Shown piece by piece: positions 19,851 through 45,006 of a stretch of 64,000 bases of DNA. The notes beneath the pieces are model-generated. The model was not told where the DNA came from, ran no database searches, and saw only the letters and a list, made by a program, of their open reading frames with translations. Position numbers and translations under genes: made by a program. The first letter of the stretch is position 1. The number at the start of each line of letters is the position of its first letter. This DNA is from an uncultured Desulfovibrio sp. (GTDB lineage Bacteria > Desulfobacterota > Desulfovibrionia > Desulfovibrionales > Desulfovibrionaceae), in NCBI GenBank assembly GCA_944327295.1, contig CALVHF010000001.1, positions 62,001-126,000 of the forward strand, read 5' to 3'.

Positions 19851-19867
19851 TTGGCACAAGCTATGCA
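19851..19867 (+). promoter_or_regulatory. Sigma54 (RpoN) promoter of flhG-fliA
   Basis: TTGGCACAAGCTATGCA, with GG and GC separated by exactly ten bases; consensus is TTGGCACG-N4-TTGCA. Predicted start near 19878, 40 bp before the flhG ATG. Confidence 0.75.
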
Positions 19868-39125: not shown

Positions 39126-42032
39126 CTAGAAGAGGGAGGTGCAGCTCCAGCCCAGGGACCGGGCGACTTCGCCGGCCCTGGCGCCGCCAATGACGCAGAC
39201 ATGGCCCTTTTCGGCCACTTCCTGCATGATGTCGGCAAAGGCCCGGAAGTCTTCCACCCTGGTGGCCAGGATTTCTTCGCGCTGGGTCTGCAGCTCCTCG
39301 TTGCTGATGCCGCTCAGGAGCCGCAGCAGGGAGACATTGCCGCGGGCATCGGGCAGGAGGTAGGCATCCACATCGCCAATGGTGCCCACAATGGCCCTTG
39401 TGAGCTCGTCTTTGGAGAGGCTGATGCGGGAGAGGTAGGAGGCAATGCCGTCATAGGCCCTGAGGGTGGCCTCCACATTGGGATCCCGGTAGCTTGAGCA
39501 GACGAAGTTGCCGGAATAGAGCTCCTGGGAGCAGAAGGCGCCGTAGGCGCCGCCCAGCACGCGCACCTGTTCCCACAGATAGCTGCGGCTCAGATGGCGG
39601 ACAATGACCCGCACCGGGCCGTGCAGCTCGCCATAGCCCAGCTGCTTCAGGTTGCAGCCCTTGGCCACGTAATTGACCTGGCTTGGGGAGGTGAAGACTT
39701 CGGCTGCGGGGCGGCTGGCCAGGGAAAGGACCTGGCTGCCGTCGGCAGCGGCTGCCCCGGGCAGGCTGGCCCAGAGGCTCTGCGCCTCGGCAAAGACCCT
39801 GGCAATCTGGGCCTCTTCGCCCACGCAGTTCACGTAGCCCGGGCGGGCGGCCACAAGGAAGCGGCGCAGGTCTTCGAAATCCTCCAGCAGCCTGGGGAAG
39901 GCGTCGTCCCAGGACTCCAGGCGCGAGCGGACGGTGGACAGGGAGCTTATGCCGGACATGAGCTCGGACATGTAGGCGTCCGTGGTGTAGTGGGAGCGCA
40001 CCCTGAGGGACGCGGCCGCATGGCCCGAGGAAATGAGGCCCTGTTCAAGGCGGGCCTTGTCCTCTAGGAGCATTTCCCTGAGGCGCTGGCCAAGCAGGCT
40101 CTGATCGGTCACGGGCTCAAGGAGCATTTCCTTTAACAGGCCGAAGAGGTCGCCGATTTTGTCGGCCACAGCCTTGCCGCCCAGGGAGAGGTAGCAGCGC
40201 ACCTCGCCATCCTTGCGGGTTACAAGGGTGGTGTCGGCGCCAAGGCCGCCTGTCTTGGCATCAATGAGCGCGCCGAGTTCCGTATAGTCATGCCGTGCCG
40301 TGCCAACTTCCCTGAAGGAACGCATGAAGAGGCCCAAGGAGGGCAGCAGGCGCACGGGCAGCTTGGGCATGGGCACAAGGAGGTTGAGATAGGCTATGCC
40401 CCTGGTGGGCTGCTCATGGGCCACGCAGGTCAGGCTTTGCTCCTCGTGCACGTCCCTCTTGATGAAGCGGCCCTGTGCGGGCAGATCGCCAAGACCCAGG
40501 CTCGGAATGGAGACCAGGGCCTCAGGGCTGTCCGGAGTGCTCTGCGCCTTCTGGAGATCCGTGCAGATTGTGCACACCTCCTGCTTTTGTTTCTCGTCCA
40601 GGGAGGCCTGTATGCCTGCAAGACGTTGCGCCTCCTCCCGGGCCAGCTGGTCGGCCATGTCGGTCTGGGGACGCAGGATGACCGTGGCCCTGCTGGGATT
40701 GTCCAGGAAGAGGGTGCGCAGGGCCTCTTCAAAGACGCGTTCGCCTTTGGCCAGGCGATCCTTGATGTGTTGCAGGGGGGCTTCCCAGGCGAGCGACGCC
40801 AGGGGATCGTGGTCATAGAGCCAGGTGGACAGGGACTGCAGCATGGCGGCAAGGCCGCGGGGGAAGGATCCGAAATTGCTTTCCCTGTAGGCAAATTCCA
40901 CGGTATTGACGGCTGCCTCCACAAGGGACGGGTCAATGCCGTCCCTGGCAAGCTCTTCCAGGGTGGTCAGGATGAGTTCCTCTGCCCTGGGGATATTGTC
41001 TTCGGCTATGCCCTTGAGGCCGGTGGAATAGAACGTCTGGGCCAGATCCGTTTCCAGGCCGCCGCCCACGGTGTCCTCGCCAAGACCGGAGGAAATGAGA
41101 GCCCTGCGCAGAGGGGAGCCGGGCATGCCTTCCAGAATGTGCTCCAGCATGCTCAGGATCATGGTGCGTTCCAGATCGCCGCGGATGCCGGTGAGCCAGT
41201 TCATGGTGAAGAGGCAGGAACCATCCTTTTCGGCCGCATAGGGCTTGATGATCCGTGTGGGCGCGCTGAAGGCCGGCTGCAGGGGAATGCAGGAATCCAC
41301 CTCGCAGCGGGTCTGCCCCTCCAGGGCCCTGGCCACAATGTTCAGGCGCTCTTCCTCGGGATCATCGCCCCAGAAGAAGAAGCGGGCATTGGAGGGATGG
41401 TAGTAGCGGCTGTGGAAGTCCTTGAACTCTTCGTAGGTGAGCGTGGGGATCACGGCCGGATTGCCGCCGGAATCAAGGCTGTAGAGCGTGTCTGGGAAGA
41501 TGGCATGCTGGCTTTCCTCGGCAATGCGCGAGTCCGGCGAGGAATACACGCCCTTCATCTCGTTGTAGACAACACCCTTGTATTCCCAAGTCCCGTCCGG
41601 TGTGTCGGCCTCTATGTGCCAGCCTTCCTGGCGGAAGATATTTTCGCTGATGAGCGGATGGAAGACGGCGTCGATATAGACATCAATGAGATTGTAGAAG
41701 TCCTGCAGGTTGGCACTGGCCACGGGGTAGCAGGTCTTGTCCGGAAAGGTGAAGGCATTGAGAAAGCTCTGCAGGGAGCTTTGCAGAAGGACCAGGAAGG
41801 GTTCCTTCACGGGATACTTGTCCGAACCGCACAACACGGAATGCTCCAGAATGTGGGCCACTCCTGTGGAATTCTTGGGCGGCGTGCGGAAGGTCACACC
41901 AAAGCATTTGTTCTCGTCGTCATTGCAGACGGAAACGATTTCTGCACCGGTTGCAGTATGTCTGTAATAACGTGCCCTGCCATTGACTTCGCAGAGGTTG
42001 CGTTCGTCAATGAGAGTGAAGTCGTTCTTCAA
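39126..42032 (-). CDS. M16C zinc metalloprotease (PreP/presequence protease type)
   Basis: 968 residues from a TTG at 42032 that has AAGGAG seven bases upstream; the open frame continues further 5' but that extension has no ribosome site and crosses a terminator. Inverted zinc motif HILEH near residue 56, with the distal Glu in the EMKGVYSSPDSR region. Four M16 repeats form two halves of a clamshell that degrades peptides after import or export. Family knowledge: organellar PreP cuts transit peptides; bacterial role is unclear. Lone gene, minus strand. Confidence 0.9.
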   Translation of the reverse strand: MKNDFTLIDERNLCEVNGRARYYRHTATGAEIVSVCNDDENKCFGVTFRTPPKNSTGVAHILEHSVLCGSDKYPVKEPFLVLLQSSLQSFLNAFTFPDKTCYPVASANLQDFYNLIDVYIDAVFHPLISENIFRQEGWHIEADTPDGTWEYKGVVYNEMKGVYSSPDSRIAEESQHAIFPDTLYSLDSGGNPAVIPTLTYEEFKDFHSRYYHPSNARFFFWGDDPEEERLNIVARALEGQTRCEVDSCIPLQPAFSAPTRIIKPYAAEKDGSCLFTMNWLTGIRGDLERTMILSMLEHILEGMPGSPLRRALISSGLGEDTVGGGLETDLAQTFYSTGLKGIAEDNIPRAEELILTTLEELARDGIDPSLVEAAVNTVEFAYRESNFGSFPRGLAAMLQSLSTWLYDHDPLASLAWEAPLQHIKDRLAKGERVFEEALRTLFLDNPSRATVILRPQTDMADQLAREEAQRLAGIQASLDEKQKQEVCTICTDLQKAQSTPDSPEALVSIPSLGLGDLPAQGRFIKRDVHEEQSLTCVAHEQPTRGIAYLNLLVPMPKLPVRLLPSLGLFMRSFREVGTARHDYTELGALIDAKTGGLGADTTLVTRKDGEVRCYLSLGGKAVADKIGDLFGLLKEMLLEPVTDQSLLGQRLREMLLEDKARLEQGLISSGHAAASLRVRSHYTTDAYMSELMSGISSLSTVRSRLESWDDAFPRLLEDFEDLRRFLVAARPGYVNCVGEEAQIARVFAEAQSLWASLPGAAAADGSQVLSLASRPAAEVFTSPSQVNYVAKGCNLKQLGYGELHGPVRVIVRHLSRSYLWEQVRVLGGAYGAFCSQELYSGNFVCSSYRDPNVEATLRAYDGIASYLSRISLSKDELTRAIVGTIGDVDAYLLPDARGNVSLLRLLSGISNEELQTQREEILATRVEDFRAFADIMQEVAEKGHVCVIGGARAGEVARSLGWSCTSLF

Positions 42033-42227: not shown

Positions 42228-42265
42228 AAAAAAAGTGACCTGAAGAGTGTGCTTCTTCAGGTCAC
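42228..42265 (-). terminator. Terminator of the minus-strand sigma54 transcript
   Basis: Minus-strand stem GTGACCTGAAG / CTTCAGGTCAC (11 bp, 9-nt loop) followed by TTTTTTT. It lies upstream of the PreP gene, so it can only end a transcript coming from the right. Confidence 0.85.
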
Positions 42266-42719
42266 GGGTCTCACAGAAAGGTTTGGCAGAAAGGTTTGGG
42301 AGGAGGGGACTGAGAGTACTGGAATGTTCGGGAGGAGATGTTTTGGTCACTTCTGCGGACTGGCCTGTGCCTTGGAAATGGCGGTCCGTCAGGGATTGAG
42401 CTGTATGTGGTGCTGGCGACAGAGCCAGAGTTGCAAGAGGTTGTGGCCAGAGCGGTCCCTCTGTGCCTTCTTTTGGGAGGTGTTGCGCAGTGCCCGCAGG
42501 GGGCTGTATGATATCCGCCATGTTTTCCGGGACAAAGGGAGTGAACCCGGATGTGAAAGCGGCTTGCAGAGAGTAGGGATGGGTTGGGCGGTATGCCAAG
42601 GGGGCAAGCATACCGCCCGGCAAGGAGCAAACATGGAGCTTCAGTTCCCGGCATGATGGGAAGGGGGACCGTCCTTAAGGAAATGGGCATGTGGGACGGT
42701 CTTTTCTGAACTCGTTCAC
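42228..42719 (-). ncRNA. Candidate sigma54-dependent noncoding RNA (minus strand)
   Basis: About 490 nt from the predicted start at 42719 to the terminator. Near its 5' end is a GACCGTCC/GGACGGTC stem (42703-42668), then an 11-bp stem GGGCGGTATGC (42618-42586). The 3' part is purine-poor with CACCTCCC (42482), TCTCCTCCCG (42338) and CCCCTCCTCCC (42308), all able to pair with ribosome binding sites, and a 13-bp tandem repeat (42274-42299). No frame in it has a good ribosome site or known protein. It could instead be a long attenuated leader of PreP. Confidence 0.6.
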
Positions 42720-42729
42720 CCACATCCTA

Positions 42730-42746
42730 AGCAACAAGCGTGCCAA
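42730..42746 (-). promoter_or_regulatory. Consensus sigma54 promoter, minus strand
   Basis: TTGGCACGCTTGTTGCT, a perfect match to TTGGCACG-N4-TTGCW with GG-N10-GC spacing. Predicted start near 42719. Confidence 0.85.
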
Positions 42747-42979
42747 CTATGAAAATAATTCTTTGACCTATTTGTATCATTGTCTTTTTTGCAAGAGATG
42801 TGGTTGCGTGGCAGGCCAGGCTCTCCGGGATACATGAGCAGACCACTGTTTAGAAATCAGACAGTGCCGGCCGGCTGTGTGTGAAAGCTATCCATCCCGG
42901 GTGTCCGATTTGGCGACACATTCGGGCAGAGGTCTCCCCAAAGTGCCCCCTGGGGCGGCTTCGGTCGTAAAAAGAAATC
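42747..42979. promoter_or_regulatory. Shared control region between divergent sigma54 promoters
   Basis: 233 bp without a gene. It holds a GTGTC-N9-GACAC dyad (42901-42919), 97 bp before the plus-strand start and 191 bp before the minus-strand start, the 10-bp palindrome GCCGGCCGGC, and an AT-rich stretch near 42750-42800 that could bend. Suited to one enhancer-binding protein serving both promoters. Confidence 0.55.
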
Positions 42980-42996
42980 CTGGCACGCTTCATGCA
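42980..42996 (+). promoter_or_regulatory. Sigma54 promoter, plus strand
   Basis: CTGGCACGCTTCATGCA, GG-N10-GC, one base from consensus (TTGCA replaced by ATGCA, as in the flhG promoter at 19851). Predicted start near 43007. Confidence 0.85.
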
Positions 42997-43006
42997 TATT
43001 AAAAAG

Positions 43007-43172
43007 TGTCCCGGAGGTGACGTTCCGGGATACTTCCGAACGACACTATTGCCATTCGCAAAGCAAATCCTCCCCAAATATTCCCAATTCCCATATCCCC
43101 CCAAACCATAAGCTTTCTCCTCCTTGTAAGCCTCCATCCCCAAAGCCCGCTTCCCTGTGAAGCGGGCTTTCT
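43007..43172 (+). ncRNA. Candidate sigma54-dependent small RNA (plus strand)
   Basis: About 165 nt. The predicted 5' end opens a stem GTGTCCCGGA / TCCGGGATAC (43007-43034). Then a purine-poor single-stranded part with TCCTCCCC (43068), CTCCTCCTT (43117) and CCTCCATCCCC (43131), complementary to Shine-Dalgarno sequences, ending in an 11-bp terminator stem. No ORF with a start and ribosome site. The layout (sigma54 promoter, 5' stem, antisense-SD part, terminator) resembles Qrr RNAs of Vibrio in logic, not sequence. Confidence 0.65.
43142..43172 (+). terminator. Terminator of the plus-strand small RNA
   Basis: AAAGCCCGCTT pairs perfectly with AAGCGGGCTTT (7-nt loop); TTTCT tail. The group II intron fragment begins four bases after it. 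Confidence 0.8.
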
Positions 43173-43175
43173 GAT

Positions 43176-43513
43176 GTGCGTCCGGCAGCGGGAACCTCTC
43201 GATGAAGGACAAGGGGCTTGTCGCGAGGCAAGTCCTGAAGGAAGCCATGGTAAACCACTGACCTGACGAACAAAACCCCGTATATGAGGCTGGCGTGTCG
43301 GAGAAAAGGGCAATGAGACTCAAAGTCCAAGAGCTGCACTGAAGGCACGCAGGTAGATACGGCGGGTATAAGAGGAAAAGTATTGCGTCTTATCTGGAGA
43401 GGCCTCACAGACGGCAACAATGCTGGAGCAAAACGTGCTGTGAGGAGTCAGCCGAGGGTATAGTAACTCCCTTCGGGAGCTAGGGCCGAACTTCTATAGT
43501 AAACGCAATAAGA
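43176..43513 (+). mobile_element. 5' fragment of a group II intron
   Basis: Begins GTGCG (43176), the 5' boundary motif, and carries sequence I recognise from group II introns: GCGAGGCAAGTCCTG, GGTAAACCACTGACC, then AGAGGAAAAGTATTGCGTCTTAT, GTGAGGAGTCAGCCGAGG and ATAGTAAACGCAATAAG. No reverse transcriptase follows: the similarity stops near 43513. The fragment lies just after a transcription terminator, the target habit of class C introns, though I cannot assign the class. Confidence 0.7.
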
Positions 43514-43998: not shown

Positions 43999-45006
43999 AT
44001 GGAACATATCGGCTTTCCAACAGAAACCGTCGTGCTGTTTGTCGTTGTCGTCCTGGCCTCGCTTTTTCTTGATCTGTACGCCCACAAGCGCGACGAGGAC
44101 ATTTCCCTCAAGAGCGCCTGTCTGTGGTCTATTTTCTGGATACTGCTCTCCGTAGGCTTTGGCATCTATCTATATGTGCACCACAGCGCGGAAATGGCCA
44201 GCCTTTTCTTTACCGGCTATGTGCTGGAAAAGGTGCTCTCCGTAGACAACCTCTTTGTCATCATGGCCATTTTCTCCTGGTTCTCCATACCCGGCAAGTA
44301 CAGGCACAGGGTTTTGTACTGGGGCGTGCTCGGTGCCATTGTCTTCAGGGCCATCTTCGTGGCCATAGGCACGGAACTGCTTTCCTTTGGCCCCTACATG
44401 GAAGTGATCTTTGCCGGCATGGTGGGCTACACAGCCTTCATGATGCTCAAGAAGCGTGAGGAAAAGGAAGAGATCAAGGACTATTCCAATCACATTGCCT
44501 TCCGTATGGTGCGCCGGTTCTTCCCTGTGTGGCCTAAGCTCAATGGTCATGACTTCTTCATGCGCCGCTCCGAAGCCGAGGCCCAGTCTGCCCGGGAAGG
44601 CGTGCCTCTGGAAGGTCTTGGGCACAAGTGCGCCTATGTGGCCACGCCGCTCTTCCTCTGCCTGGCTGTCATCGAAGTGAGCGATGTCATGTTCGCCTTT
44701 GACTCCGTGCCTGCGGTCATTGCCGTGAGCCGCGAACCCCTCATCATCTATTCGGCCATGATCTTCGCCATTCTCGGCCTGCGCAGCCTCTACTTTGTCC
44801 TGGAATCCTTAAGCAGCCGCCTTGTCTACCTGGAGACCTCGGTGGTCGTCCTCCTCTTCTTCATCACCGTCAAGCTGCTCCTCTCGGCCTGCAACCATCT
44901 CTTTGGCATCGGCTTCGAGATTTCCCCGCACCTCTCCCTGGTCATCGTGCTCACCGTGCTTGTCATAGGCATTGTGGCCTCCTTTGTGGTGCCCAAAAAG
45001 CAGTAG
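43999..45006 (+). CDS. TerC/Alx family membrane protein
   Basis: 335 residues, about eight to nine helices. TerC signatures: FTGYVLEKVLSVDNLFVIMAIFSWF (Asp/Asn in the first conserved block) and VIEVSDVMFAFDSVPAVIAVSREPLIIYSAMIFAILGLRSLYF. Family members export manganese or other metals (Alx, MeeF/MeeY type). The ATG at 43999 has no adjacent strong ribosome site; the AAGGAGG 30 nt upstream sits in a hairpin, which suggests regulated translation. A second, longer TerC protein is at 51777. Confidence 0.88.
   Translation: MEHIGFPTETVVLFVVVVLASLFLDLYAHKRDEDISLKSACLWSIFWILLSVGFGIYLYVHHSAEMASLFFTGYVLEKVLSVDNLFVIMAIFSWFSIPGKYRHRVLYWGVLGAIVFRAIFVAIGTELLSFGPYMEVIFAGMVGYTAFMMLKKREEKEEIKDYSNHIAFRMVRRFFPVWPKLNGHDFFMRRSEAEAQSAREGVPLEGLGHKCAYVATPLFLCLAVIEVSDVMFAFDSVPAVIAVSREPLIIYSAMIFAILGLRSLYFVLESLSSRLVYLETSVVVLLFFITVKLLLSACNHLFGIGFEISPHLSLVIVLTVLVIGIVASFVVPKKQ

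Follow-up and report, generated by a model that had tools for sequence, protein, structure and literature searches.

Organization of the preP-terC intergenic region

The window, by which we mean the whole stretch of DNA analysed, comprises 64,000 nucleotides (G000:C1:62001-126000) of a 2.99-Mb Desulfovibrio-type genome in 161 contigs, for which the nearest named relative found was Candidatus Desulfovibrio intestinipullorum (95% preP identity). Two genes that face away from each other lie in the interval flanked by preP, on the minus strand with its start near 42032, and a terC-like gene, on the plus strand with its start near 44000. One specifies a noncoding minus-strand RNA of about 490 nt (42228..42719) and the other a noncoding plus-strand RNA of about 165 nt (43006..43173). 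As an earlier sequence-only reading of this DNA had proposed, each is preceded by a sigma54 promoter. That of the minus RNA, TGGCACGCTTGTTGCT (42730..42745, minus strand), matches the full consensus, with a predicted +1 at about 42719, and that of the plus RNA, TGGCACGCTTCATGCA (42981..42996, plus strand), departs from consensus once, with a predicted +1 at 43006/43007; promoter quality and starts agree with that reading. Sites of such quality occur nowhere else in the 64 kb, where 0.25 are expected by chance on both strands (first-order Markov simulation). A weaker third sigma54-like site, TGGCACAAGCTATGCA, is present at 19852-19867 on the plus strand.

Both RNAs are predicted to end at intrinsic terminators, which had likewise been proposed and which our analysis bears out: GTGACCTGAAGA-N7-TCTTCAGGTCAC followed by U7 for the minus RNA (42228..42265, minus strand; identical in the sister species G013 and helix 3 of our alignment) and AAAGCCCGCTTC-N5-GAAGCGGGCTTT for the plus RNA (43142..43173, plus strand). 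A group II intron (43176-~43700; Rfam RF02001, 103.8 bits at 43217-43386) opens with GTGCG immediately after the plus-RNA terminator, in the manner of group IIC introns, and no reverse-transcriptase-like ORF was seen inside it. The insert is absent from G013, so the plus RNA has become parted from terC in the present species.

The divergent pair is conserved in one clade

Among 79 genomes of the genus, G013 was the sole other genome to align over the whole region at the DNA level (75%). The two genomes show little or no difference in both promoters (including AGCAACAAGCGTGCCAA of the minus-RNA promoter, which is unchanged), both terminators, the plus-RNA 5' hairpin and a CU element of 33 bases, while the DNA between these elements carries many indels. 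Inspection of the DNA upstream of preP in 18 further genomes revealed four more divergent sigma54 pairs (G006, G070, G077 and G049), which brings the arrangement to six species with a promoter spacing of 236-350 bp. Promoters, terminators, hairpins and CU stretches are retained among them and much of the remaining sequence drifts. In a preP tree the five placeable carriers grouped together, and G048, which has only one RNA, was the sister of this clade (G049 obtained no placement in that run and was left out). Lack of conservation in relatives, an outcome that would have spoken against the sequence-only reading, was looked for and not seen; by these genome comparisons the divergent pair of sigma54 RNA genes is real and clade-conserved.

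Structure and noncoding nature of the two RNAs

The predicted folding of the minus RNA beats that of every dinucleotide shuffle (z -3.9). It contains a conserved hairpin, GGGCGGTATGC...GCATACCGCCC (42586..42618, minus strand; helix 2, 11 pairs), in which 92.7% of alignment cells are paired and double changes (UA-to-CG, AU-to-GC) occur, and it also keeps a long-range helix, GUUCAG/CUGAAG, where changes are one-sided only. Across the helices 84% of cells are paired, compared with 30-48% when the helices are slid, and 11 cells are changed on both sides compared with 4.7 after shuffling, in a set of just five sequences whose kinship inflates such counts. Its frames are broken by many indels of lengths other than multiples of three between the two nearest genomes. 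The relatives in G006, G070 and G077 are about 300 nt long. Since the minus-side transcript of G049 looks unlike the others, with an ORF of about 70 codons behind the minus promoter, we regard the minus RNA as established in five species only.

Folding of the plus RNA also beats every dinucleotide shuffle (z -3.5). The paired stem of its 5' hairpin (43006..43033, plus strand) changes among relatives, reading CCCGG/CCGGG here, CCCAA/UUGGG in G006 and G070 and CCCAG/CUGGG in G077, around a constant GUGACGU loop. Downstream lies a G-poor stretch (43068..43139, plus strand) with CUCC/CCUCC motifs predicted to be unpaired, which includes CATAAGCTTTCTCCTCCTTGTAAGCCTCCATCC, identical in G013. No start codon with a ribosome site was seen in the plus RNA. 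With the broken minus-RNA frames, this agrees with the earlier proposal that neither RNA has a credible ORF, and a conserved peptide, which would have contradicted that proposal, was sought and not seen. A model of the plus RNA (R1) matched six genomes among the 79, once each (E 7e-24 to 1e-40), and beyond these six carriers gave weak partial matches, none convincing. R1 was trained on the same six sequences and is mainly a sequence model, because the automatic structure retained the terminator alone; the telling result is therefore the absence of other genomes and of second copies. As judged by this search, the plus-RNA family is single-copy and confined to the pair-carrying clade.

A conserved dyad lies between the promoters

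Of the DNA between the promoters, TGTYTAGAAATCAGACA is the element that is best conserved; here it forms the dyad TGTTTAGAAATCAGACA (TGT-N11-ACA; 42847..42863), whose centre lies at about -136 relative to the minus start and -152 relative to the plus start. Its forms in relatives are TGTCTAGAAATCAGACA or TGTCAAGAAATCAGACA in G013, G006, G070 and G077 (twice), and, when searched for with the AGAAATC core and no more than one mismatch, it was present at this locus only in each of G000, G013, G006, G070 and G077. A second, weaker site, TGTGTGAAAGCTATCCA (42878..42894), lies 31 bp from it, and site pairs 31-33 bp apart are also present in G013, G006, G070, G049 and G048. The sequence-only reading had instead assigned enhancer function to a GTGTC-N9-GACAC dyad. 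That dyad exists (42901..42919), but it is less well conserved: it is partial in G013 (GACAC to GACAG), was not found in the other four carriers and scores 0.2 bits with the matrix described below, which makes it secondary at best and rules it out as the main enhancer in favour of 42847-42863.

At zraP promoters of other Desulfovibrionaceae, TGT-N11-ACA sites are often paired. A matrix built from 24 such sites, taken from zraP-type promoters near ZraR-like regulators, detected dyads in 6/6 carriers, where the best sites score 9.1-15.0 bits with a shuffle P of 0 to 0.02, and also at preP-linked promoters in G048, G062, G017, G065 and G009. Some control promoters score too, one of them beside an AcoR-like activator, and the TGT-N11-ACA motif is not unique; the matrix matches are therefore support, not proof. 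Similar half sites are common to several Desulfovibrio activators (PMC4641369), and for this reason, together with the scoring controls, the sites do not pin down the activator.

A ZraR-like response regulator is a candidate activator

Elsewhere in Desulfovibrionaceae, ZraR-like regulators adjoin a sigma54 promoter that drives ZraP-like proteins behind TGT-N11-ACA. Sequence reading recognised two response-regulator activators in G000. The protein encoded by L083 (G000:C1:36223-37599) is ZraR-like, scoring 569 bits to the ZraR model, which is below the 760-bit equivalog cut-off, and retains GAFTGA. The ZraR, AtoC and NtrC models all match it better than does the GlrR model (366 bits), and it resembles ZraR more than LuxO. 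In neither G000 nor G013 did the 14 kb surrounding the ZraR-like gene reveal a conserved sigma54 promoter: around L083 there is one sigma54-like match, downstream of the gene and without a TGT-N11-ACA dyad, and there is none in the sister genome. The RNA pair is therefore a natural target of L083. As a further clue we considered autoregulation, and no exact TGTC-N9-GACA site was present at the activator genes of G000. The search for a conserved enhancer-binding regulator, which the sequence-only reading had recommended, produced a ZraR-like candidate with GAFTGA (L090 and L093 are excluded from the cross-genome activator comparison).

The other of the two is encoded by L092 (G000:C28:11368-11871), an NtrC-type response regulator whose conservation extends to the genomes of the genus that were tested. 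It was ruled out as a sigma54 activator by the loss of GAFTGA, which is replaced by ETPSSA (ELFGSETPSSAGSP), and by its sequence this relative of sigma54 activators probably no longer uses sigma54.

Anti-Shine-Dalgarno motifs recur among relatives

The sequence-only reading had drawn attention to three CCUCC-type motifs in each RNA. Such motifs are present, three in the plus RNA (P 0.07) and four in the minus RNA (P 0.22), but in this genome alone the counts are not significant against dinucleotide shuffles; the motif count therefore cannot stand alone, and the anti-Shine-Dalgarno case is carried by conservation and by the relatives. In the plus RNA of G000 the CTCC motifs are predicted to be unpaired at 0.78-1.0, the average for the whole RNA being 0.60, and they recur among the homologs. 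Inside the G-poor stretch, CATAAGCTTTCTCCTCCTTG (G000 and G013) reads as the complement of Shine-Dalgarno-spacer-AUG, as does the conserved unit GCCATTTCTCTCCTTTCC of G006, G070 and G077. Units of this type (CAT-N4..9-CTCC) are over-represented in G006, G070, G077 and G048. The preP-linked RNA of G048 contains 9 CTCCT where 0.9 are expected, together with 6 CAT-N4..9-CTCC units where 0.2 are expected, and that of G062 contains 7 CTCCT (1.3 expected) and 10 CCTCC (3.1 expected), with 0/400 shuffles reaching these CTCCT and CCTCC counts; only their position and promoter link these two RNAs as homologs to the plus RNA.

Over the genus, the CCTCCT-array pattern was mostly as frequent as its control, the exceptions being the preP-linked RNAs and, in G013:C46, an array joined to a terminator. 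In the latter (L232:1500-1600) a hairpin and T-run terminator come immediately after a short CCTCCTT array, which may mark another anti-Shine-Dalgarno RNA or a derivative of a 3' UTR.

Hfq (PF17209) was not found in the 99.9% complete genome, with E. coli as a positive control. Target prediction against ribosome sites, another check that had been suggested, returned no specific target. Extended complementarity singled out no unique target, the matches being modestly above a backward control (57 vs 36 in G000, 43 vs 26 in G013), and in a second search match numbers were mixed around that control. One ribosome-site-like match in G013 was rejected, as it opens only a short frame. Duplex energies between the RNAs and start sites (140 crude gene calls) were no better than for shuffled RNA.

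Interpretation and alternatives

On the comparative evidence, the promoters, the terminators, the noncoding nature, the conserved structure and the conserved enhancer sites are taken as established, and it is highly probable that both RNAs are transcribed. The reading that we favour, with modest confidence, is that of a divergent pair of regulatory RNA genes under one activator, most likely ZraR-like, whose CUCC stretches block translation. A response-regulator activator, most likely the ZraR-like protein of G000:C1:36223-37599, would bind the central TGT-N11-ACA sites and turn on sigma54 polymerase at both promoters; each RNA would terminate at its own terminator and expose CUCC/CCUCC stretches, which would pair with the ribosome site of target messages, sometimes through the AUG, and block translation, probably independently of Hfq as for NfeR1 (PMC10746234). 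That a single activator serves both promoters is likely, that the RNAs pair with target ribosome sites is reasonably likely, and a ZraR-like identity of the activator is slightly favoured. The original idea that one activator signal is converted into two regulatory RNAs survives to the extent that two divergent noncoding genes share one sigma54 enhancer region; the enhancer site that it named is the less conserved of the two dyads.

The same RNAs might instead answer to a different, non-response-regulator activator conserved in carriers (AcoR-like L088, L089, L091, L084 or L085), so that the signal would be metabolic rather than envelope or metal stress. 

We regard a non-response-regulator activator of this kind as a doubtful alternative. 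Orthologs of L088 turned up in each carrier tested (G013, G006 and G077) and in none of the non-carriers tested, and the zraP-derived matrix also gives a score to TGTTC-N7-GAACA sites at a promoter next to L088; yet L085, L088 and L089 would each find a target in a further sigma54 promoter close by, none of these has an exact TGTC-N9-GACA site, and G062 and G065 have preP-linked sigma54 promoters with ZraR-type dyads although no L088 ortholog was found in either. We also think it unlikely that the RNAs are sponges rather than direct repressors, with CUCC titrating Shine-Dalgarno-containing RNAs or the minus RNA modulating the plus RNA. Two unequal RNAs from one enhancer do recall the decoy logic of GlmY/GlmZ (PMC7073468), and the repeated short-motif arrays of G048 and G062 would suit titration, but no Shine-Dalgarno-rich partner RNA is known here.

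That the transcripts chiefly serve to encode small proteins, as do those from the preP-linked sigma54 promoters of G065 and G009, would fit the protein (MNRRQFFGTLGLS...) encoded by positional relatives and the ORF of G049; the plus RNA's want of a visible start codon with ribosome site, the indel-broken minus frames and the strong terminators at which both RNAs stop before preP and terC make this very unlikely. Chance promoter matches in drifting intergenic DNA, with no real RNA genes, are least credible: consensus matches by themselves prove nothing, but six species retain both promoters in their divergent arrangement, and five retain the main dyad, amid surrounding DNA that diverges.

If the favoured reading of a regulatory RNA pair is true, a divergent sRNA pair under one sigma54 enhancer would exist in a gut-type Desulfovibrio, a setting in which such sigma54-ncRNA regulators have been reported as uncommon, and the sigma54-sRNA logic of Qrr and GlmY would be joined to the anti-Shine-Dalgarno logic of NfeR1 in a genome without recognisable Hfq.

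Comparison with known systems

An Rfam covariance search returned no sRNA family match for either RNA and no Qrr match; ar14 reached 16.5 bits on the minus strand (gathering score 58.8), a chance-level E of 2.3 that does not support membership in that family. NfeR1 (alpha-r14) of rhizobia is a short sRNA that acts independently of Hfq and exposes several anti-Shine-Dalgarno motifs, CCUCCUCCC lying unpaired in three hairpins; it has a sigma70 promoter, is tied to an NtrC-type system and silences messages at the translation initiation region (PMC10746234). The RNA pair also has several such motifs, predicted to be unpaired, but most are located in a single-stranded stretch poor in G, downstream of a sigma54 promoter, and CCUCCUCCC is not repeated as in NfeR1.

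In enterobacteria, the response regulator QseF (GlrR; sensor QseE/GlrK) and sigma54 drive the envelope-homeostasis sRNA GlmY (PMC6075780, PMC8745638), and GlmY/GlmZ act on glmS through RapZ (PMC7073468). The QseF site, TGTC-N10-GACA, differs little from the TGTC-N9-GACA of this locus, whereas GlmY is not part of a divergent pair from one enhancer and our candidate activator scores 569 bits to ZraR against 366 to GlrR, its role at this locus being a prediction. The Vibrio Qrr sRNAs are sigma54-dependent under the response-regulator activator LuxO (PMC2680268, PMC4878744). A sigma54 promoter with upstream activator sites is found here as well. Qrr action requires Hfq, which the present genome was not found to encode, the candidate activator is nearer ZraR than LuxO, and the RNAs are one single-copy pair, not homologous qrr copies. 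The likeness to Qrr that the sequence-only reading had drawn consequently holds for a response-regulator activator and sigma54 making sRNAs, and fails on these further points. Upstream, the pair would work like GlmY or Qrr and downstream like NfeR1, a likeness of logic and not of family membership.

For D. vulgaris Hildenborough, four ncRNAs are predicted under sigma54 and an activator, each a different one, Dv_sRNA2 expression was seen in tiling arrays, and ncRNA regulators are reported mainly in free-living species (PMC4641369, PMC3333781), whereas Ca. Desulfovibrio intestinipullorum is the closest named relative of the present genome. Compared by description only, the main text of these reports mentions neither a divergent pair nor a CCUCC/anti-Shine-Dalgarno array. 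With ZraSR-zraP the locus shares a ZraR-like activator, here a candidate, TGT-N11-ACA sites (a motif that is not unique) and a sigma54 promoter, but the promoters here drive RNAs and no conserved sigma54 promoter surrounds the ZraR-like gene of G000 and G013. Consistent with the earlier remark that no account of such a pair was known to its author, term searches of the open-access literature found none, with most subscription papers outside their scope.

Other products of preP-linked sigma54 promoters

In G065 (L042:2250-2990) and G009 (L050:2300-2980) the preP-linked sigma54 promoter, with ZraR-type dyads upstream, drives a small Gly/Arg-rich Tat-signal-like protein (MNRRQFFGTLGLS... and MTRRQFFATLGLS..., respectively). 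A broader and quite tentative reading is that of a lineage-wide, Hfq-free, sigma54-triggered brake on the translation of many messages under envelope or metal stress, in which the RNAs would carry arrays of anti-ribosome-site units (complements of Shine-Dalgarno-spacer-AUG) and the product of the preP-linked promoter would have been swapped during Desulfovibrio evolution among a small Tat protein, a single array RNA and a divergent RNA pair. A promoter with changing products would offer a tractable case of regulatory RNAs arising at an existing stress promoter. In G017 (L206:460-960; also G018, G061 and G062) the preP-linked sigma54 transcript has a possible 33-codon ORF, whose Shine-Dalgarno region, GGAGGTCCGTC, is exactly complementary to the downstream GACGGACCTCC; by its sequence, this transcript could be a decayed small-protein message turned RNA.
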